Shown here: piece by piece, positions 47,393-56,760 of the stretch
Numbering within the stretch: position 1 is the stretch's first letter
Layout of the letters: the number at the start of each line of letters is the position of its first letter
Assembly: GCA_024998625.1 (NCBI GenBank)
Contig: JACOEL010000010.1
Span: forward strand, 62,001 to 126,000
Length of the DNA stretch: 64,000 nt
Direction of reading: 5' to 3'
DNA from: Nitrospira sp.
Lineage (GTDB): Bacteria > Nitrospirota > Nitrospiria > Nitrospirales > Nitrospiraceae
The notes under the pieces: generated by a model
Seen by the model: only the letters and a program-made list of their open reading frames with translations
Told to the model about the DNA's origin: nothing
Database searches by the model: none
Translations under genes and position numbers: made by a program

Positions 47393-47845
47393 ATGAAGGT
47401 GAGCCTTCGAGCGACCTACGGAATTATCGCCGCCGTGGATCTGGCGCTCCACCATGACGAGCAGCCGGTCTGCGCCAAGTCGATCGCCAAGCGACAGGCG
47501 ATTCCGGCCCGGTTCCTCGAACAGGTGCTTCATGCGATGAAAAAAGCCGGAGTGGTGACAAGTCAGCGCGGGGCTCAGGGCGGGTATGTGTTGAGCCGTA
47601 AGCCCTCGGAGCTCTCCGTGGCTGATATTCTCGATGCACTAGAGGGCCCGCTCCTCACGACAAATGGAGAGGTCGGTCCGAAACATTCGGCTTCGCGTGG
47701 GGCCAAGCAAGAGGCACTGCTCGCCCACATTTGGGATCGTGTGAAACGGGCGGAATTGAGTGTTCTTTCGGAAGTCACGGTCGAGGAGTTGGCCAAGCGC
47801 CAGCGGGCCCTCGACGAGCAGCACACGTTGATGTACCACATTTGA
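47393..47845 (+). CDS. Rrf2-family transcriptional regulator (CymR/IscR-like)
   Basis: The 150-aa winged-helix regulator opens MKVSLRATYGIIAAVDLALHHDEQPVCAKSIAKRQAIPARFLEQVLHAMKKAGVVTSQRGAQGGYVLSRKP, the Rrf2 pattern. The three cluster-binding Cys of IscR are missing (only one Cys, in the HTH), so it is closer to CymR-like sulfur or cysteine regulators than to Fe-S sensors. It is the first gene of the sulfate assimilation cluster, with sulfite reductase 45 bp downstream, so it probably controls it. Confidence 0.88.
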   Translation: MKVSLRATYGIIAAVDLALHHDEQPVCAKSIAKRQAIPARFLEQVLHAMKKAGVVTSQRGAQGGYVLSRKPSELSVADILDALEGPLLTTNGEVGPKHSASRGAKQEALLAHIWDRVKRAELSVLSEVTVEELAKRQRALDEQHTLMYHI

Positions 47846-47890: not shown

Positions 47891-50395
47891 ATGATGAGTC
47901 CCAATATAGTGGCTCTCCGTCCAGCGATTAAAACGGAGCCCATTCCGGATCATATAGTCGAAGAAATCGAAACGTTTGAAGCGGAGGCGCAGCGGGTTCT
48001 CGCCGGAGATCTCTCTACCGACATCTTCAAGCCGTTTCGTTTGCAATATGGGATCTATGGCCAGCGGCAGCCCGGGGTGCAGATGTTCCGCATCAAGATC
48101 CCGTTCGGCGGACTGACCGCCAATCAATTGCGCCAGGTCGCGGACCTTGCCGATCAGTACGCCACGGGTGTGGGCCATGTCACCACACGGCAGGATATCC
48201 AGCTGCACTTTGTGGAACTCAAACATGTTCCCGAAATGATGCGTTTGTTGGCGTCGGTTGGGCTGACCACGCGCGAGGCCTGCGCGAATACGGTGCGGAA
48301 CGTCACGGCCTGTCATCTGGCGGGCGTGTGCCAGGGCGAAGTGTTCGATGTCACGCCATACGCGAAGACGGTGGCCTATCATCTCCTGCGCAATCCGCTG
48401 AATCAGAGTCTCCCGCGCAAGTTCAAGATTGCGCTGTCCGGATGCCGGCAGGATTGCGCGCTCACACCCATCCACGACATCGGGTTGCTCGCGGCGAAGC
48501 GGGCCGATGGAACCATCGGTTTCCGAATGGTGGCAGGCGGTGGATTGGGATCGACGCCACGCATGGCCCAGGTGCTGCGAGAATTTACGCCGATGGACGA
48601 ATTACTCCCGACCATCGAGGCGGTGATCAAGGTGTTCGACACGCTTGGGAACCGTAAGAATCGCAACAAGGCCCGCATGAAATTCGTCATCGAAAAGCTC
48701 GGGTTCGACGAGTTCAAGCGTCGTTGGGAGGCGGCTTACGCGGCCATGGGCTATGCCGTGCCGATGCACGAGCCGATCAAGCTGCTGGATTATGCCGATG
48801 CGCCGCCGCTCATTATGCCGACCAAGGCCGACGCTCTGTCCAACGGTCATGGCAATGGCAACGGCAGCGGGAATGGTTCTGTGTCACTCAATGGTCAGGT
48901 CTCCGCCTTCCAGGCGTGGAAGCGCACCAATGTCGTGCCGCAGCGGCAAGCGGGTTTTGTGACGGCGGCGGTCAAGTTGCCGATGGGCGATCTGACGGGC
49001 GAGCAAATGTGGGTGGTCGCAGACTTGGCCGAACGGTATTCGAACGGCAACATTCGGACGACCATCAATCAGAACATGGTCATCCGGTGGATTCCCGAAG
49101 GACGGCTGGAGGAGTTCTATCAAGAGCTCGTGCAACACAGCTTGGGCGATCCTGGCGCAGAGCTCGTAGAAGACATCATCGCCTGCCCGGGCACCGACAC
49201 CTGTGGGTTGGGAATTACCTCGTCTAAGGGCATGGCCAGAGCATTGGCGGAAGTGTTCCCCGCCGGCCAGGTCCCGGAAGATCTCAGAGATGTGAGCGTC
49301 AAGATCAGCGGTTGCCACAACTCTTGCGCCCAGCACCATATTGCCACCATCGGGTTGCACGGAGTCGGCAAACGTCTTGGCGAACATACCGCTCCGCATT
49401 ACGAACTGCATCTCGGCGGGCATGTGGACGGCACGCCGAAGATCGGACAGTTGGCGGTGAAGTTGCCCGCGAAGAGTGTCCCGGCGGCGGTACGTCATCT
49501 GGTCGACGTCTATCGTCGGGATCGAAAGGCGGGTGAGAGCCTCCAGTCGTTCATTACACGTGTCGGGAAGAATGTGCTGAAGGACGAACTCATTCCCTAC
49601 ACGATCGTTCCGCCGTATGAGCAGGACTCGACCTATTATTATGACTGGGAAGGCGAGGCGGAATTCGTGCTGGAGGATTTGGGGCCCGGCGAATGTGCGG
49701 GTGGCGCCTTAGAGATGATCGACGACCGCATGTTAGAGGCCGATCAGGAGCTCTATCAAGCGAAACTACTGGTTGAGAAACATCAGTATGCCTTGTCCGT
49801 GAATAAATCGTATCGCGCTGTGTTGGCAGCGGCGAAAGGTCTTTTGGTGACCGAAGGCCTCGATCCGGCCACCGATGCCGAAACCTTCCAGGAGTTCGAT
49901 CTGCGGCTGGCCAGCAAAGGCATCGTTCCGGCGACCTACAAGAATCTTGGCGCGCAAGTCGGCGACCTTGGTTCTAAGGACGCGACTGCCGAGGCGGCGA
50001 CGGAGAAAATGGCCTTCGCGAAGCGGTTTCTCGCCGTCTGTCGGGCGGCCACGGAACAAATGGGGAAGGATCTAAAGTTGGCCCAGGTGAAGGAAGAAGC
50101 CCTGCCGGCTGCAGCTCCTGCTGCGGTGCCTGCTTCACCTGCACCCGTTGCTGCGGCCCAGGTGCCTGTGTACGATCTGCGCGGCGTGGCCTGCCCGATG
50201 AATTATGTGAAGACGAAACTGAAATTGGAAATGATGGACAACGGCGAGCAGCTGGAAGTCTGGCTCGATGCCGGAGAGCCCATTCGCAATGTGCCGATGA
50301 GCTTGCGAAACGACGGACACAAGATCCTCGACGAGGGGCCGTTGGAACCTGAAGCCAAGCATTTCAAAATTCTTGTGGAAAAGGTCGAGGGGTAA
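47891..50395 (+). CDS. Assimilatory sulfite/nitrite reductase fused to a helical domain and a TusA-like domain
   Basis: Siroheme/4Fe-4S reductase reducing sulfite to sulfide (nitrite also possible). The 834-aa protein has two reductase halves (about residues 40-310 and 340-590), each with a ferredoxin-like and a siroheme domain, joined by a Gly/Asn/Ser-rich linker (about 317-337). Cys quartets occur in both: C141, C147, C185, C189 and C432, C438, C475, C479 (the latter in CPGTDTC and SGCHNSC). Residues about 640-740 are helical and HEPN-like. The C-terminus is TusA-like, with Cys768 in RGVACPM. The sulfate assimilation context points to sulfite. Confidence 0.88.
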   Translation: MMSPNIVALRPAIKTEPIPDHIVEEIETFEAEAQRVLAGDLSTDIFKPFRLQYGIYGQRQPGVQMFRIKIPFGGLTANQLRQVADLADQYATGVGHVTTRQDIQLHFVELKHVPEMMRLLASVGLTTREACANTVRNVTACHLAGVCQGEVFDVTPYAKTVAYHLLRNPLNQSLPRKFKIALSGCRQDCALTPIHDIGLLAAKRADGTIGFRMVAGGGLGSTPRMAQVLREFTPMDELLPTIEAVIKVFDTLGNRKNRNKARMKFVIEKLGFDEFKRRWEAAYAAMGYAVPMHEPIKLLDYADAPPLIMPTKADALSNGHGNGNGSGNGSVSLNGQVSAFQAWKRTNVVPQRQAGFVTAAVKLPMGDLTGEQMWVVADLAERYSNGNIRTTINQNMVIRWIPEGRLEEFYQELVQHSLGDPGAELVEDIIACPGTDTCGLGITSSKGMARALAEVFPAGQVPEDLRDVSVKISGCHNSCAQHHIATIGLHGVGKRLGEHTAPHYELHLGGHVDGTPKIGQLAVKLPAKSVPAAVRHLVDVYRRDRKAGESLQSFITRVGKNVLKDELIPYTIVPPYEQDSTYYYDWEGEAEFVLEDLGPGECAGGALEMIDDRMLEADQELYQAKLLVEKHQYALSVNKSYRAVLAAAKGLLVTEGLDPATDAETFQEFDLRLASKGIVPATYKNLGAQVGDLGSKDATAEAATEKMAFAKRFLAVCRAATEQMGKDLKLAQVKEEALPAAAPAAVPASPAPVAAAQVPVYDLRGVACPMNYVKTKLKLEMMDNGEQLEVWLDAGEPIRNVPMSLRNDGHKILDEGPLEPEAKHFKILVEKVEG

Positions 50396-50400
50396 GAAGG

Positions 50401-51123
50401 GTGAAAGAAGCACAGAAGTCGGCTGCACGACCCTCCGACGCAGAGCTGAAGGCACTGAGTGCTTCGTTCGAAGCACAGCAGCCGTGGGACCTGCTGGAGT
50501 ATGCGTTGAAGACCTACCGGCAGCGCATTGTGCTCGCCTGCAGTTTCGGAGCGGAAGATGTCGCCCTGGTGGACATGGTGCATCGCATCGATCCGGACAC
50601 ACCGCTTTTTTATCTGGATACGGACTTTTTGTTTCCCGAAACCTTCGATGTGCGTGATCGCATTATCGCGCGGTACGGATTGAAGCCGGCGCAGGTCATT
50701 CAAATGAAGTCCCTGTTGACGCCGGAACAGCAGGATGCTCAGCATGGCGCCATGTTGTGGGCCAGCAAGCCGGATCAGTGCTGCGAGCTTAGGAAAATCG
50801 AACCGCTCACTCGTATTCTCGGCGAGTACTCGGCCTGGATCACCGGGATCCGGCGAGACCAGGCTCCCACAAGGGCAAACGCCGGGCTGATCGAGTGGGA
50901 CAAGAAATTCAACCTGGTCAAAGTGAATCCCCTGGCCCGATGGAGCAGTGACAATGTCTGGACGTATCTGCAGCTCCATGAGGTGCCCTATAACACGTTA
51001 CACGACCGCAATTACCCCAGCATCGGCTGTACCCATTGTACGGCGCCTGTCCTTCCGGGAGACGATCCGCGTTCCGGTCGGTGGAAGAATTTCGGCAAGA
51101 CCGAGTGCGGGCTGCACAAGTAA
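50401..51123 (+). CDS. cysH: Adenylylsulfate (APS) reductase, CysH family
   Basis: Reduces APS to sulfite with thiol donors. The 240-aa protein has the PP-loop-like SFGAEDVALVDM, then the Fe-S Cys motifs CCELRKIEPL and SIGCTHCT, and the C-terminal catalytic Cys in KTECGLHK. The CC...CxxC motifs mark the 4Fe-4S APS-using type rather than the PAPS-using CysH of E. coli. The GTG start lies 5 bp after the reductase stop. Confidence 0.95.
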   Translation: MKEAQKSAARPSDAELKALSASFEAQQPWDLLEYALKTYRQRIVLACSFGAEDVALVDMVHRIDPDTPLFYLDTDFLFPETFDVRDRIIARYGLKPAQVIQMKSLLTPEQQDAQHGAMLWASKPDQCCELRKIEPLTRILGEYSAWITGIRRDQAPTRANAGLIEWDKKFNLVKVNPLARWSSDNVWTYLQLHEVPYNTLHDRNYPSIGCTHCTAPVLPGDDPRSGRWKNFGKTECGLHK

Positions 51124-51164: not shown

Positions 51165-52232
51165 ATGCAACATCTGCTCGCCAAAGTCGCTAAAGGTCAA
51201 AAAACATCCAAGGATCTCACGTGGGAAGAGGCCAAGCAGGCCATGCGCCTCATGATCGAGGGGACCGCGACGCCGGCGCAGATCGGGGCGTTTCTCACGG
51301 CCATGCGTTTCAAGTCGGAATCGGTCACGGAACTCGCCGCCTTCACGGCATCGGCGCGCCAATATGTGCCGCCGGTGCCGGTCCGTTCAGGGCTCGGAGT
51401 CGTCGATGTGCCGGTCTATGCGGGGAAACGGGAAACCTTTCACGCCATTCTTCCTGCTGCCGTTGTTGCGGTGGCCGCTGGAGCCGTCTTGCTGTTGCAC
51501 GGAGTGGATGGGCCTCCGGACCGGCTCGGGATCTCGTCGGTGCTGAAGCTCTTGGGCATTCCTGTCGATCTGACCGCCAAGTTTGTCGGGGCCGAATTGG
51601 AAAAGAAGGGGTTCGCCTATCTTGACCTGGCGCTGTATCACCCTCCGGTGAGCCGGTTTCTGGAAATGAGGCAGGAGTTGGGCGTGCGCAATTTCTTTCA
51701 TCCCGTGGCCCGTATGCTCAACCCCGCACGCGCGACCTCGCAGGTGATCGGCCTGTCACATCCGCCTTACTTCGAGAAGACCATCGAGGCGCTGCGTATG
51801 TTGAGTTGTCCGCGCGCGCTCGTTATCCGCGGAGTCGAGGGCGATCCCGAGCTTTCGATCGGCAATTCAACTCGGCTCTTGGAGCTGAAGGACGAACGCA
51901 TCACGCCGTTTACTTTCCAGCCGAAGGATGCGGGCTTGTCGATGGCGACCTTCCGCGAGATGGCCGGGTTCCCGGTCGAGCAGCGGGAGCGCGAGGCCGA
52001 TTTGATTAGGCGGCTCCTCGCCAACGAAATTCAGGGCGGGCAACGGGACTGGGTCCTCCTCAATGCGGCCATGTTGCTCTATGCAGCCGGCAAAGGGGCC
52101 TCGATTACTGGAAATCTTGGGGTTGCCAGAAGCGCGTTGGAGTCCGGTCAGGCCAAGGCTAAACTGGCTGAGTTGGTGGCGGTCGCCGGATCAAGCGCGG
52201 GAAACACGCCAAAGGTCGGCATTTCAGCGTAA
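51165..52232 (+). CDS. TrpD2-like (anthranilate phosphoribosyltransferase family) protein
   Basis: Glycosyltransferase-family-3 fold, 355 aa: helical N-domain (LTWEEAKQAMRLMIEGTATPAQIGAFLTAMRFKSES) and a PRTase-like core (VLLLHGVDGPPDRLGISSVLKLLGI; SRFLEMRQELGVRNFFHPVARMLNP). The PRPP-binding GTGGD motif of true TrpD is not seen; the corresponding place reads VVDVPVYAGKRETF, as in TrpD2/YbiB proteins, some of which bind DNA. No trp genes are near. Its place between cysH and cysD suggests a sulfur-linked or accessory role, unknown. Confidence 0.8.
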   Translation: MQHLLAKVAKGQKTSKDLTWEEAKQAMRLMIEGTATPAQIGAFLTAMRFKSESVTELAAFTASARQYVPPVPVRSGLGVVDVPVYAGKRETFHAILPAAVVAVAAGAVLLLHGVDGPPDRLGISSVLKLLGIPVDLTAKFVGAELEKKGFAYLDLALYHPPVSRFLEMRQELGVRNFFHPVARMLNPARATSQVIGLSHPPYFEKTIEALRMLSCPRALVIRGVEGDPELSIGNSTRLLELKDERITPFTFQPKDAGLSMATFREMAGFPVEQREREADLIRRLLANEIQGGQRDWVLLNAAMLLYAAGKGASITGNLGVARSALESGQAKAKLAELVAVAGSSAGNTPKVGISA

Positions 52233-52249: not shown

Positions 52250-53047
52250 ATGAAACATTTGCGTCAACTCGAAGATCAAAGCGTCTATATCCTTCGGGAA
52301 GCCTATAAGCATTTCAATCACCTCGCCATGCTCTGGTCGATGGGGAAGGATTCGACCGTGCTCCTGTGGCTCGCCCGCAAGGCCTTTTTCGGGCATGTGC
52401 CGTTTCCCTTGCTCCACGTGGATACAAGTTACAAGATTCCGGCGATGATCGAATATCGCGACCGGATTGCCCGCGAGTGGCGCCTCAATCTGGTGGTGGG
52501 TCAGAACAAAGAGGCCCTGGCCGCCGGGATGAACCACACCCTCGGGCGGGATGTCTGCTGTACCGCCTTAAAGACGACGGCCATGAAGAATCTGGTCGAA
52601 GAAAAGGGCTACACCGGCATTATTCTCGGCGTTCGGGCGGATGAAGACAGCACCAGGGCCAAGGAGCGATATTTTTCCCCGCGGGACAAACACGGGGATT
52701 GGGATTTTCGCGACCAGCCGCCGGAACTGTGGGATCAGTTCAAGACCACCTTTCCGCCGGGCACGCATATCCGGATTCATCCGCTCCTCGATTGGACCGA
52801 GATTAATATCTGGGAATACATCAAGCATGAGAACATCCCCTTCATGGATCTCTACCTGGACAGGGGGGATGGCACACGGTATCGAAGTTTGGGCTGCGCG
52901 CCCTGCACCATGCCGATCAAATCCACGGCGAAGACGGTGGATGAGATCATCGCGGAGCTCCGTGGAACCAATGTGGCCGAGCGGGCCGGGCGCGCGCAGG
53001 ACGCGGGGCGAGGCATGGAGATGCTGCGGAAGAAGGGATACATGTGA
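52250..53047 (+). CDS. cysD: Sulfate adenylyltransferase subunit CysD
   Basis: Catalytic subunit of ATP sulfurylase, which makes APS from ATP and sulfate. The 265-aa protein has the N-type PP-loop [21 protein letters not shown], then [18 protein letters not shown] and the C-terminal segment [14 protein letters not shown]. It lies 17 bp after the TrpD2-like gene and is followed by cysN. Confidence 0.95.
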
Positions 53048-53126
53048 GTCGGTCCATGCCGGATAGCAGGCGGGCATTCGAACGATCACGATCATGAACC
53101 GGGGTTTCATTGAACGAGTGAATCAT

Positions 53127-54974
53127 ATGACACAGCACGACCAGACCAAGCCGCAAGAGAGTCTCAACATCGTCATCGTTGGCCATGTAGATCACGGGAA
53201 GTCCACGCTGGTGGGACGACTCTATGCCGATACGGGTTCTTTGCCGGAAGGCAAAGTGGAAAAAGTGCAGGCGATTTGCCGCCAGCAGGGCAAGGAGTTT
53301 GAGTATGCCTTCCTGTTCGATGCGTTTCTTGAGGAGCAGGAGCAGGGCATCACGATCGATACGGCGCGTACGTTCTTTATCTGGAACGGGCGGCAGTACA
53401 TCATTATCGACGCACCGGGACATAAAGAGTTTTTGAAGAACATGATCTCGGGCGCGGCCCGGGCGGAAGCCGCGCTGTTGCTCATCGACGCGTTGGAAGG
53501 CGTGCGCGAACAATCCAAAAAGCATGGCTACCTCCTGTCGCTGCTGGGCGTGACACAGTTTGCGGTGGTGGTCAATAAAATGGATCTGGTCGGGTATCGG
53601 CAGGATGTGTTCGACGGGATCGAAAAGGAATATCGGGAATTTCTGGGTCAGTTCCGGGCGGTTCCTCAACAGATGATTCCGGTCAGCGCGAAGATGGGTG
53701 ACAACATCGCGACGCGCAGCAGCCATATGAACTGGTATCAGGGCCCCACGGTGCTGGAGACGCTGGCGCTCTTCAAAAAGGAGCAGGTGCGTTCGGAACA
53801 GCCGCTCCGATTCCCACTGCAGGACGTCTATAAGTTCGATGCGCGGCGGATTCTGGCCGGCCGCATTACGGCGGGCCGCTTGAAAGTCGGTGATCAACTG
53901 GTGTTTTCACCGTCCAACAAGACAGCGCTCGTGCAATCGATTGAAGGATTCAACGTCGATCCGCCGCAGAGCGAGGCACAGGCCGGTCAGTCCGTCGGCA
54001 TCACGCTCGACGAACAGATTTTCGTGGAGCGTGGAGAGATCGCGTCCCATCGAGACTCCATTCCGCTCGTCTCGACGGCGATTCGCGTGAACCTGTTTTG
54101 GATGGGCAGGCGGCCGCTGGAGAAGGGGCGAAAGTATGTCTTGCGGCTCGCCACGCGTGAAGTCGCCTGCGAGGTCGCCGCGATTCATCGGATTATCGAC
54201 ACCGCCGATCTCGCGCAACTTCAGGAAAGCCAGGCGGTAGCGAAGAATCAGGTCGCTGAGCTGACCCTGCGTGCGAAATCGCCGCTCGCGTTTGATCTCT
54301 CGTCCTCATTCGAAGCCACAGGCCGGTTCGTGCTGGTCGATGAGTACGACATTGCCGGGGGCGGGATCATTACCGAGTTGGTGCACGACGAGCAGGAAGG
54401 GCTGCGCGAGGAGGCGCGGCAACGGGAATATGCGTGGCTCACAGGCGATGTCCGGGCAGAAGACCGCGCGGCGCAATATGGGCATCGGGCCGCCATCGTG
54501 CTGTTCACCGGTTCAGCCCAGACAGGTAAGACGTTTCTTGCGCGTAGGGTGGAGGCGCTGCTCGTTGCCGATAGCCGTCACGCCTACTTGCTGGAAGGCG
54601 AGAATCTGTTGCAGGGATTGGATGCGGATTTGTCAGCGGCCGACCCGTCCTTCGCCGCCGAGCGAGTGCGCCGCTATGGTGAGGTTGCCAGGTTGCTGAT
54701 CGATACGGGGCTCATCGTCGTGTCCACGAGTAAAACCTTCGGTATCAATTATCAGCGGATGGCCGAGATGATACGGACGTTGGTTCAGCCAGCTCCGGTG
54801 ATTGCGGTGCACATGAGCCGGGCGGGAGAAGAACCGCCACCGAATACCGATCTGCATTTCGCGGGGCCCCAGGATTTTGACGCCGCTGCCCGTCGGATAC
54901 TGGAAGAGTTGAAGCGGCGGGGGGTGCTCATTCAGCCCTCCGGAACGAAGTCCACCATCCAATATTCCATCTAG
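53127..54974 (+). CDS. cysN: Sulfate adenylyltransferase subunit CysN with degenerate APS-kinase-like C-terminal domain
   Basis: GTPase subunit that drives APS synthesis with CysD. About 615 aa. EF-Tu-like GTPase motifs are GHVDHGKST near the N-terminus, DAPGHKEF and NKMD, then two beta-barrel domains. From about residue 455 an APS-kinase-like domain follows: P-loop [15 protein letters not shown] where CysC has LDGDN, and [18 protein letters not shown], but the end of CysC is altered and shortened. Kinase activity is doubtful. The start is uncertain (ATG 53094 or 53127); 53127 places the first family motif at the usual distance. Confidence 0.93.
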
Positions 54975-55051: not shown

Positions 55052-55978
55052 ATGACCATGACTGCCGGCAAGGATCTCAAGTCGATCCTCACGAAGCTTC
55101 AGTATTCCGACGACGCGAAAGTGGTGCAGCAGATCACTGCCCAGATGAAGCAGGTGCAGGCTCGGATGGCCGGCATCAAGCAGAAACTGGTCGTGATGAG
55201 CGGTAAGGGCGGAGTCGGCAAAAGCATGACGACCGTCAACCTCGCATTGGCCTTTGCGCGACAGGGGGCGAGGGTCGGATTGCTTGACGTCGATTTGAAC
55301 GGCCCCTGCGTTCCGCGCATGATGGGCTTACACGGTCAGTCGTTAAGAATGACTCCCGAAGGGGCGCAGCCTCCCGTCGGTCCCTTGGGCATCAAAGTGG
55401 CCTCGATGGATTTTTTCCTCGATGATGCCTCGCCGGTGCGGTGGAAGGGTCCCATGGATTTGAGCCCGGTCTGGCTCGGCCTCATGGAAATGAACGTCAT
55501 TCGCGAATTCCTAGCCGATGTGGTTTGGGGAGAATTGGATTATCTCCTGGCCGATCTCCCGCCGGGTGCGGCTGCCGATAAACCGCCGGTGATTGCCGGG
55601 TTCATTCCGGATCTCGCCGGGGCGATCGTCGTGACGACTCCGTCCGAAGTCGCCTCCGACGTGGTGCAGAAATCCGTCACCTATGCGCGCGATATGGGTA
55701 TTCGGGTTTTGGGCATTGTAGAAAACATGAGCGAATACCGCTGTCCATCCTGCGGCGCGGAGAATGAGTTATTCGAGGGGAATACGGAGGCGATGTGCGA
55801 GGTGCTGGATCTGCCCTTGCTCGGCCGTGTCCCGTTCGATCGTAAATTTGCCAAAACATTCGATAAGGGGCAGCCGCTCCTCGATCCTGAGTATCCGACG
55901 ATCCAAAAATATCAAGACATCGTCGGGCGGATTCAAGCGTTACTGGATTACAAAAAAGTCCTGGCTGAAAAGCTGTAA
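55052..55978 (+). CDS. mrp: Mrp/NBP35-family Fe-S cluster carrier ATPase
   Basis: ParA-like ATPase carrying Fe-S clusters to apoproteins. The 308-aa protein has Walker A KLVVMSGKGGVGKSMTTVNLALA, DVDLNGPCVPRMMGL and the family segment DLPPGAAADKP. The C-terminal CPSCG in EYRCPSCGAENELF holds the Fe-S site Cys pair. The N-terminal DUF59 domain of some Mrp proteins is absent. It could serve the neighbouring sulfite or APS reductases, but this is inference. Confidence 0.92.
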   Translation: MTMTAGKDLKSILTKLQYSDDAKVVQQITAQMKQVQARMAGIKQKLVVMSGKGGVGKSMTTVNLALAFARQGARVGLLDVDLNGPCVPRMMGLHGQSLRMTPEGAQPPVGPLGIKVASMDFFLDDASPVRWKGPMDLSPVWLGLMEMNVIREFLADVVWGELDYLLADLPPGAAADKPPVIAGFIPDLAGAIVVTTPSEVASDVVQKSVTYARDMGIRVLGIVENMSEYRCPSCGAENELFEGNTEAMCEVLDLPLLGRVPFDRKFAKTFDKGQPLLDPEYPTIQKYQDIVGRIQALLDYKKVLAEKL

Positions 55979-56004
55979 GCACACCGACCCGGAGGGGGGA
56001 TCCT

Positions 56005-56760
56005 ATGAAGTTCGTTTGCCTGAACTGCGAGACCTACATGACGTTTCAGAAGGTCGAAAAACCCGGTGAGGGCTCACTCGGTGTCTTCTTCGGTTGTCCA
56101 TCCTGTGAGGCGAAGTTCTCCATGGTGACGAATCCGGGAGAGACCCAAATGGTTGCTTCGCTCGGTGTGAAGCTGGGTGGCCGTACGGAGACGGCAGAAC
56201 CGTTTGAGATGACTCGCGGGACGCTGAAAGATGAGGCGCAGGCCGGCGCAGGGCAGATGGCCGCCTATCTCAACGAAAAGATTCAGGGCGGACAGCCGGT
56301 GGCGGCTTCTGCGAAACCCAGCGCGCCGGATGCCGGTGGAGAGAAGACGTCCGGCGGGTGCCCGTTCTCGGCGATGGTCGCGGAAATGGGGTTGACCTCC
56401 GGCGGCAAGCCGCAAAATGGAAATGGAACGAGCGAATTCACGTGGACTGCAGACGCCAAGGAGAAGTTGGAGCGTCTACCGTCTTTTGTGAAACCGATGG
56501 TGCAGAGCAGCGTGGAAGCCTATGCGCGCAAGCATGGGTATAAGAGCATTACGCTGCAGGTCATGGACGATTCCAAGAACGATTCGCCCAACGGTATCGC
56601 CTGGACCAAGGATGCCGAACAACGCATGGATAACATTCCTGACTTCATTCGTCCGATGGCCCGCCGGGAAATTGAGCGGATTGCCAAGGAGCGCGGCTTG
56701 GTCGAGATCACGGCCCAGGTGATGGATGAAGCCAAAGAGAAGTTCATGAAGTTCATGTAG
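56005..56760 (+). CDS. Protein with N-terminal zinc ribbon and two PCP_red domains
   Basis: The 251-aa protein starts with a zinc ribbon (CLNCETYM and CPSCEAKF, 32 residues apart) and ends with two PCP_red (protochlorophyllide reductase 57-kDa-subunit-like) domains: FTWTADAKEKLERLPSFVKPMVQSSVEAYARKHGY and IAWTKDAEQRMDNIPDFIRPMARREIERIAKERGL. PCP_red domains occur in BchB/ChlB, but also in small proteins of non-photosynthetic bacteria with unknown role. It follows mrp by 26 bp, so a link to Fe-S proteins is plausible. Confidence 0.85.
   Translation: MKFVCLNCETYMTFQKVEKPGEGSLGVFFGCPSCEAKFSMVTNPGETQMVASLGVKLGGRTETAEPFEMTRGTLKDEAQAGAGQMAAYLNEKIQGGQPVAASAKPSAPDAGGEKTSGGCPFSAMVAEMGLTSGGKPQNGNGTSEFTWTADAKEKLERLPSFVKPMVQSSVEAYARKHGYKSITLQVMDDSKNDSPNGIAWTKDAEQRMDNIPDFIRPMARREIERIAKERGLVEITAQVMDEAKEKFMKFM

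Follow-up and report, generated by a model that had tools for sequence, protein, structure and literature searches.

Within the 64,000-nucleotide stretch of a Nitrospira sp. contig analysed here (the window), one open reading frame encodes a sulfite reductase whose two joined halves each carry a full cysteine quartet, followed by a HEPN-like domain and a TusA domain. As the original prediction had pointed out, well-studied enzymes of this family keep the quartet in one half only: the four first-half cysteines are absent from CysI, and published assimilatory sulfite reductases (aSirs) have one siroheme–[4Fe-4S] site left after duplication and fusion (PMC10229431), which makes a fused chain with two quartets unusual. 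The locus raises the questions of how many catalytic sites the chain contains, what the additional quartet binds, and whether the sulfur product leaves as free sulfide or passes to TusA. No SiR–TusA or SiR–HEPN protein is described in the literature searched, subscription papers possibly excepted.

Domain architecture and catalytic site

The fusion and its parts are arranged as follows, with the evidence for each in brackets.

47891..50395, + strand: sulfite reductase–HEPN–TusA fusion, 834 aa (ORF and translation, Pfam, fold match)
48008..48781, + strand: first reductase half, residues 40–297, with R67/R136/K177/K179 plus the CX5C/CX3C quartet (CysI and AsrC alignments)
48311..48457, + strand: first-half Cys quartet C141, C147, C185, C189 (alignments; full in 110/117 orthologues)
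48782..48901, + strand: Gly/Asn-rich inter-half linker, residues 298–337 (sequence; pLDDT <50 at 297–336)
48902..49606, + strand: second reductase half, residues 338–572, the standard aSir siroheme–[4Fe-4S] half, with the anion-binding residues absent
49184..49327, + strand: second-half Cys quartet C432, C438, C475, C479, equivalent to CysI C434, C440, C479, C483
49682..49702, + strand: GPGECAG motif with C602 at 49694–49696, in a low-confidence stretch where the first HEPN helix begins
49700..50065, + strand: HEPN-fold helical domain, residues 604–725, without Rx4-6H (PF05168; 2hsb match)
50162..50386, + strand: TusA domain, residues 758–832, with C768 in CPxN (PF01206; 3lvj match)

Pfam searches returned two NIR_SIR_ferr and two NIR_SIR matches, HEPN at residues 613–661 and TusA at 761–831. 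The HEPN match (PF05168, E 5.9e-5) is barely above its cut-off (23.6 vs 22 bits), and TusA (PF01206, E 3.3e-15) scores 56.1 bits against a cut-off of 28.6. The AlphaFold2 model used here was built from 28 sequences, some of them distant (pLDDT 71.6); with 43 close Nitrospira sequences the model was of low quality (pLDDT 58.8) and was set aside. Residues 24–564 of the model match Mycobacterium tuberculosis NirA (1zj8; Z 34.6, rmsd 2.9, 28% identity), residues 604–725 match the HEPN protein 2hsb (Z 15.9, rmsd 2.8 over 119 aa), with further HEPN fold matches to 1wol and sacsin (both Z 13.7), and residues ~756–833 match E. coli TusA (3lvj; Z 11.1). Residues 298–337 and 726–756 form low-confidence linkers.

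These results bear out most of the original prediction. Both quartets have the positions and the C-x5-C/C-x3-C spacing it gave (C141/147/185/189 and C432/438/475/479), the linker between the halves is indeed Gly/Asn-rich (at about residues 315–335), and Pfam and fold matches agree with its HEPN-like (2hsb) and TusA-like (3lvj) domains. Its assignment to the sulfite reductase family is likewise upheld by the NirA/aSir fold and the retained CysI catalytic residues. The cysteines of the 834-residue protein are at positions 131, 141, 147, 185, 189, 432, 438, 475, 479, 602, 717 and 768. The fusion falls under the cut-offs of the NCBIfam CysI/sir/NirA equivalogs (PRK09567, 287 vs 523 bits; TIGR02041, 137 vs 757; TIGR02042, 128 vs 732), and below those of the dsrA and dsrB models.

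Alignment with E. coli CysI (L117) gives counterparts for the pocket residues R83, R117, Q121, H123 and R153 (R67, R100, Q104, H106 and R136 of the fusion), for R214, K215 and K217 (R176, K177 and K179), and for C434, C440, C479, N481 and C483 of the cluster region (C432, C438, C475, N477 and C479). The sulfite-binding Arg/Arg/Lys/Lys set in this alignment (R67, R136, K177, K179) lies in the N-terminal half of the fusion. Since the second-half cysteines and the first-half Arg and Lys residues are all kept, the site that they form together (site 1) is complete and of the sulfite type, and the chain very probably contains one catalytic siroheme–[4Fe-4S] site acting as a sulfite reductase.

Lys versus Asn at the position of CysI K217 is a known difference between sulfite and nitrite reductases. 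The fusion has Lys here (K179), whereas the NirA of its own genome and two haloarchaeal NirA have Asn. The structure of the tobacco N226K mutant, which we take to bear on the same nitrite/sulfite difference, is among the fold matches of the fusion model. Nitrite as the main substrate is disfavoured by the sulfite-type K179 and by the existence of a separate Asn-type NirA, which is found close to ammonium-transporter-like genes; the two are the only NIR_SIR proteins in the genome. A search of the genome for CysJ found none, which makes ferredoxin the likely electron donor.

The fusion resembles NirA-type enzymes (M. tuberculosis NirA, plant NiR) in its fold, two halves, second-half quartet and siroheme pocket residues, but differs in its full first-half quartet (three of the four cysteines in Nitrospira and haloarchaeal NirA), its added HEPN and TusA domains, the Lys at K179 and its scores under the NirA cut-offs. 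With CysI it shares the Arg, Lys, Cys and Asn counterparts R83, R117, R153, R214, K215, K217, C434, C440, C479, N481 and C483 and a role in the cysHDN pathway, but the identity is ~26%, and CysI works with CysJ and has neither the first-half quartet nor the HEPN and TusA domains.

C131 (48281–48283), which directly precedes the counterpart of CysI N149 near the active site, is invariant in 117/117 orthologues. It also occurs in some relatives without TusA and may be a second thiol near the substrate.

The first-half cysteine quartet

A profile alignment of the first half against the second (probability 99.9%, E 5.5e-36) registers C141/C147/C185/C189 on C432/C438/C475/C479. When the one-half enzyme AsrC is aligned with the fusion, its identity is 32% to the first half, with its four catalytic cysteines and pocket Arg in register, and 23% to the second half, so that the first half looks, from sequence, like an intact ancestral protomer. 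Taken together, the half-to-half register, the AsrC match and the conservation described below indicate that the two-quartet pattern is not chance. In fold, the first half matches these one-half enzymes (for Fsr, Z 19.7 with an rmsd of 2.4 over 225 aa), and like Fsr and AsrC it combines an anion pocket with a quartet; however, those enzymes form symmetric assemblies with one site per chain and inserted ferredoxin clusters, whereas the fusion has joined halves and one full pocket.

The second-half quartet is invariant in all 117 non-identical orthologues and in every outgroup aligned. The first-half quartet is complete in 110 of the 117, a set in which close Nitrospira relatives predominate. 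Of the other seven sequences, one has a gap at these positions, three are Nitrospirota members of family f9 (C-S-C-H), and three come from Bacteroidota and have none of the four cysteines. Members of f9 have HEPN and TusA and have lost C147 and C189. In NirA of the genome of the fusion, of haloarchaea and of the viral-collection contigs L180 and L181, C141, C185 and C189 are present and C147 is absent. Scans of viral contigs yielded nine loci on eight contigs, all distant or partial relatives, which were used only for the model alignment and the Cys comparison.

In the tree, Nitrospirota and Bacteroidota sequences form one SiR–HEPN clade (91/94), which adjoins proteobacterial 'nitrite/sulfite reductases' without first-half Cys. 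These sister proteins, of the Pseudomonas/Rhizobium type (with DUF2849/DUF934), share 31–36% identity with the fusion over residues 20–575 and are once found beside cysH, but have neither first-half Cys nor HEPN nor TusA. Because f9 is nested among full-quartet lineages, its state is a secondary loss. The simplest reading of the sequences is an ancestral first-half quartet with several losses, in a tree whose deep branches are unsettled or long.

The residues of the second half that mirror R67/R136/K177/K179 in the half-to-half alignment are A360/E427/D467/S469, in columns that vary within the family. This mirror pocket is without Arg or Lys, which makes a second catalytic siroheme unlikely. 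As four ligands are kept beside an absent pocket, the first-half quartet probably binds a second, non-catalytic [4Fe-4S] cluster with no working siroheme pocket; such a cluster would be the simplest reason for keeping all four. That f9 has dispensed with C147 and C189 while retaining HEPN and TusA shows the second cluster to be dispensable.

Here the original prediction divides. Its NirA/aSir-fold sulfite reductase stands; the reading of the two quartets as two catalytic sirohemes is not supported, since the Arg/Lys pocket is intact only for the site with the second-half cysteines, the pocket residues of the second site are missing, and the close f9 lineage retains only two of the four first-half cysteines. 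Its check of whether the first-half Cys lie near a cofactor pocket was addressed by homology. An inactive, structural siroheme at the first-half quartet would have a precedent in DsrA (PMC10229431), and the second half offers two basic residues, R389 and R399, the latter kept in most of the SiR–HEPN clade; most of the first-half partners of the tetrapyrrole carboxylates, however, have no second-half counterpart, and we regard this arrangement as improbable. Two complete and active siroheme–[4Fe-4S] centres per chain, suggested by the two complete quartets and by the siroheme retained at the DsrA site of dissimilatory enzymes (PMC10229431), are very hard to reconcile with the variability of A360/E427/D467/S469, the degenerate f9 quartet and the purely structural role of the second DsrAB site.

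The accepted picture derives fused assimilatory enzymes from a one-half enzyme that was duplicated and fused, with one cluster site lost. Loss of the quartet from the first half is a typical aSir trait; the fusion retains that quartet in full and is a variant rather than a typical member, probably a state between an ancestral two-site enzyme and modern one-site aSirs. With the ligands of both sites still in place, this history of duplication and loss becomes testable on a living enzyme.

Two sets of related genes stand apart. NirA and SiR–HEPN genes also occur on contigs filed as viral (L180–L183 and L176/L184), which are probably host DNA. At L153:1696-4881 (G304, family f7), a 1062-aa NIR_SIR protein has equivalents of C141 and C185 only and sits on a very long branch.

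Distribution and gene neighbourhood

The window (G000:C3) belongs to Nitrospira, with its best named relatives at 90–97%. The fusion was found in 41/41 of the nearest genomes searched, in some only as fragments at contig ends, and in 130 of 295 drawn Nitrospirota genomes (E below 1e-60), a count that includes three or more f7 members without fused TusA. It is widespread in a phylum with major nitrifiers, the nitrite-oxidising Nitrospira included. A dsrA gene scored above cut-off in 129 of the 295 genomes, with an overlap of 0 with the 130; the exclusion follows a few large clades and does not represent 259 independent events. Likewise, dsrA was not found above cut-off in 18 fusion-carrying genomes. 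By sequence and fold homology, the fusion appears to serve as assimilatory sulfite reductase in Nitrospira and in the majority of Nitrospirota lineages without DsrAB. In one genome (G183) it is the sole NIR_SIR protein.

In the window, the fusion gene is flanked by a regulator and by genes of sulfate activation and reduction.

47393..47845, + strand: Rrf2/CymR-like regulator, 45 bp upstream of the fusion, next to it across Nitrospira
50401..51123, + strand: CysH, APS/PAPS reductase, 5 bp downstream of the fusion, a source of sulfite
52250..53047, + strand: CysD, sulfate adenylyltransferase small subunit
53094..54974, + strand: CysN with a C-terminal APS-kinase-like domain

The regulator scores under the CymR cut-off and is CymR-like only. 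The order rrf2-SiR-cysH-trpD2-cysD-cysN recurs in Nitrospira wherever contigs show it (80 loci), and aprA-aprB-SiR-...-sat is found in about half of 17 other Nitrospirota loci. APS reductase and ATP sulfurylase, of whichever type, thus lie beside the gene, which fits sulfite as the substrate.

Some members of the neighbourhood are less easily placed. A TrpD2-like gene (anthranilate phosphoribosyltransferase family; 51165–52232) is kept inside the Nitrospira cys operon and also separates SiR from sat in L140 and L141; we know of no role for it in sulfate assimilation. The P-loop APS-kinase-like domain fused to CysN (53094–54974) has a weak score covering 107/152 Pfam positions and may be a degenerate CysC. 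Positions 55052–56760 encode an ApbC/Mrp-type Fe-S carrier followed by a PCP_red-domain protein, a pair that also occurs after sat in L136 and L137, both f9 loci.

Possible sulfur hand-over through C602 and TusA

The Cys of a CPxP motif is characteristic of the TusA family. In the fusion the motif is CPxN, in 111/111 sequences, and the Cys (C768) and first Pro are likewise kept in 111/111. C602 belongs to a GxGEC[AS]G motif and is kept in every orthologue covering that region, Bacteroidota included; in the AlphaFold2 model it lies between a disordered stretch (585–607) and a helix (604–629), like a thiol on an arm. The HEPN RNase motif Rx4-6H has no match in residues 600–730, and a toxin-type RNase role for this domain is rejected on that ground. 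Bacteroidota relatives have C602 and no fused TusA, and no TusA gene was seen in their annotated neighbourhoods.

In three f7 genomes (L149–L151) the reductase ends after HEPN, and a separate TusA gene of the CPxN type follows 8–50 bp downstream. In a genome without dsrA (G177), the locus L138:275-8438 reads aprA-aprB-SiR/HEPN/TusA-tusB/dsrH-dsrE-dsrE-sat. The split genes and the operon context support a functional link of TusA with the reductase, and suggest that reduced sulfur may pass on directly instead of leaving as free sulfide. The L138 cluster as such resembles a Dsr-free sulfur relay.

Persulfide relays of the TusA-TusBCD and DsrEFH-DsrC kinds are well established (PMC3397948). In Fsr and CysI, however, enzymes with the assimilatory signature (Arg, CX5CXnCX3C) are reported to reduce sulfite completely, by six electrons and without intermediates, and to release HS- (PMC10229431). 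HS- is no persulfide, so reduction would have to halt at S(0), or an oxidation follow, before a thiol could be loaded. Given this loading problem and the assimilatory active site, we regard covalent transfer of the sulfur to TusA as a plausible proposal and put it slightly short of an even chance.

Our best explanation as a whole, on which we would place even odds, is a one-site sulfite reductase that probably has a second cluster and may pass sulfur by way of C602 to C768. Sulfite from CysH (AprBA in relatives) would enter the reductase and, judging from the alignment and the model, be reduced at a single siroheme–[4Fe-4S] centre whose Cys come from the second half and whose Arg/Lys come from the first, an arrangement shared with CysI and NirA. 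The first-half quartet would hold a second [4Fe-4S], a leftover of the ancestral homodimer that perhaps relays electrons or stabilises the protein. The sulfur product, in part or in full, would move from site 1 to C602 at the HEPN boundary, to C768 of TusA and on to a downstream carrier, such as the DsrE/TusB-like proteins of the one relative or possibly a ThiS-type carrier encoded elsewhere in the genome. Conservation, operon context and the TusA gene that stands apart in f7 lead us to infer these sulfur-passing steps.

The fusion may instead be an ordinary sulfite reductase of the ferredoxin type whose product leaves as free sulfide, with HEPN and TusA in docking or regulatory roles and the first quartet a functionless relic. 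Its catalytic residues and cluster motif match six-electron aSirs (CysI alignment; PMC10229431), f9 has lost C147 and C189, Bacteroidota members have neither the four cysteines nor TusA, and the CysK of the genome, with an equivalog-level score, can use free sulfide. This account is nevertheless less likely in view of C768 in every TusA-bearing copy, unfused TusA that is still the neighbouring gene, the DsrE-type carriers adjoining the fusion in L138, and a first quartet complete in 110/117.

Hand-over through C602 and C768 can also be taken further, to a single-chain biosynthetic counterpart of DsrABC-TusA in which reduction would stop before free sulfide, the second [4Fe-4S] would act as a relay, and sulfur would travel from C602 to C768 and on to cysteine only on proteins; we consider this version doubtful. 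The fusion shares with DsrAB-DsrC and TusA-DsrEFH the two quartets with one working site and, in one relative, nearby protein-bound sulfur carriers. Unlike DsrAB, it has no DsrA/DsrB ferredoxin insertion, its motif is CX5C...CX3C and not CXnCCX3C, and dsrA is absent from fusion genomes. Were the TusA domain indeed loaded during turnover, sulfate assimilation without free sulfide would become directly testable.

The gene order of L138 resembles the DsrE-TusA sets of sulfur oxidisers (PMC3397948, PMC10839748), as if in relatives with aprBA and sat TusA/DsrE gave sulfane sulfur from which the siroheme made sulfite, and AprBA-Sat sulfate and ATP. The active site is however of the assimilatory type, reported to be unidirectional in Fsr (PMC10229431), the gene in the window sits with cysH and cysDN, which points in the reductive direction, and these genomes have no dsrA; an oxidative role is accordingly quite improbable.

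Returning to hand-over, a possible recipient is encoded on contig C32 of the genome (G000:C32:184700-190320; L171:4706-10311, - strand), where genes for a ThiS-like carrier ending in GGGR, CysK, MoeB/ThiF, ThrC, a MoaD-type carrier ending in GG, a NIL-domain protein, a second MoeB/ThiF and a JAB protease are clustered. A ThiS-like carrier, CysK/CysM, ThiF/MoeB and JAB together are the hallmark of CysO-type cysteine synthesis. Protein-thiocarboxylate routes lead to cysteine with Mycobacterium CysO and to methionine with Wolinella HcyS, which is fed by Sir sulfide. Neither of the two E1-like MoeB/ThiF proteins of the set has a rhodanese domain, so a separate sulfur donor would be needed, for which the TusA of the fusion is a candidate.

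The genome encodes other TusA proteins. A second, stand-alone CPxN TusA (GVICPYNFVKTKLKLE) lies at G000:C27:128112-128318 (L174:4113-4319), away from other sulfur genes, and contig C8 carries a canonical CPMP TusA.
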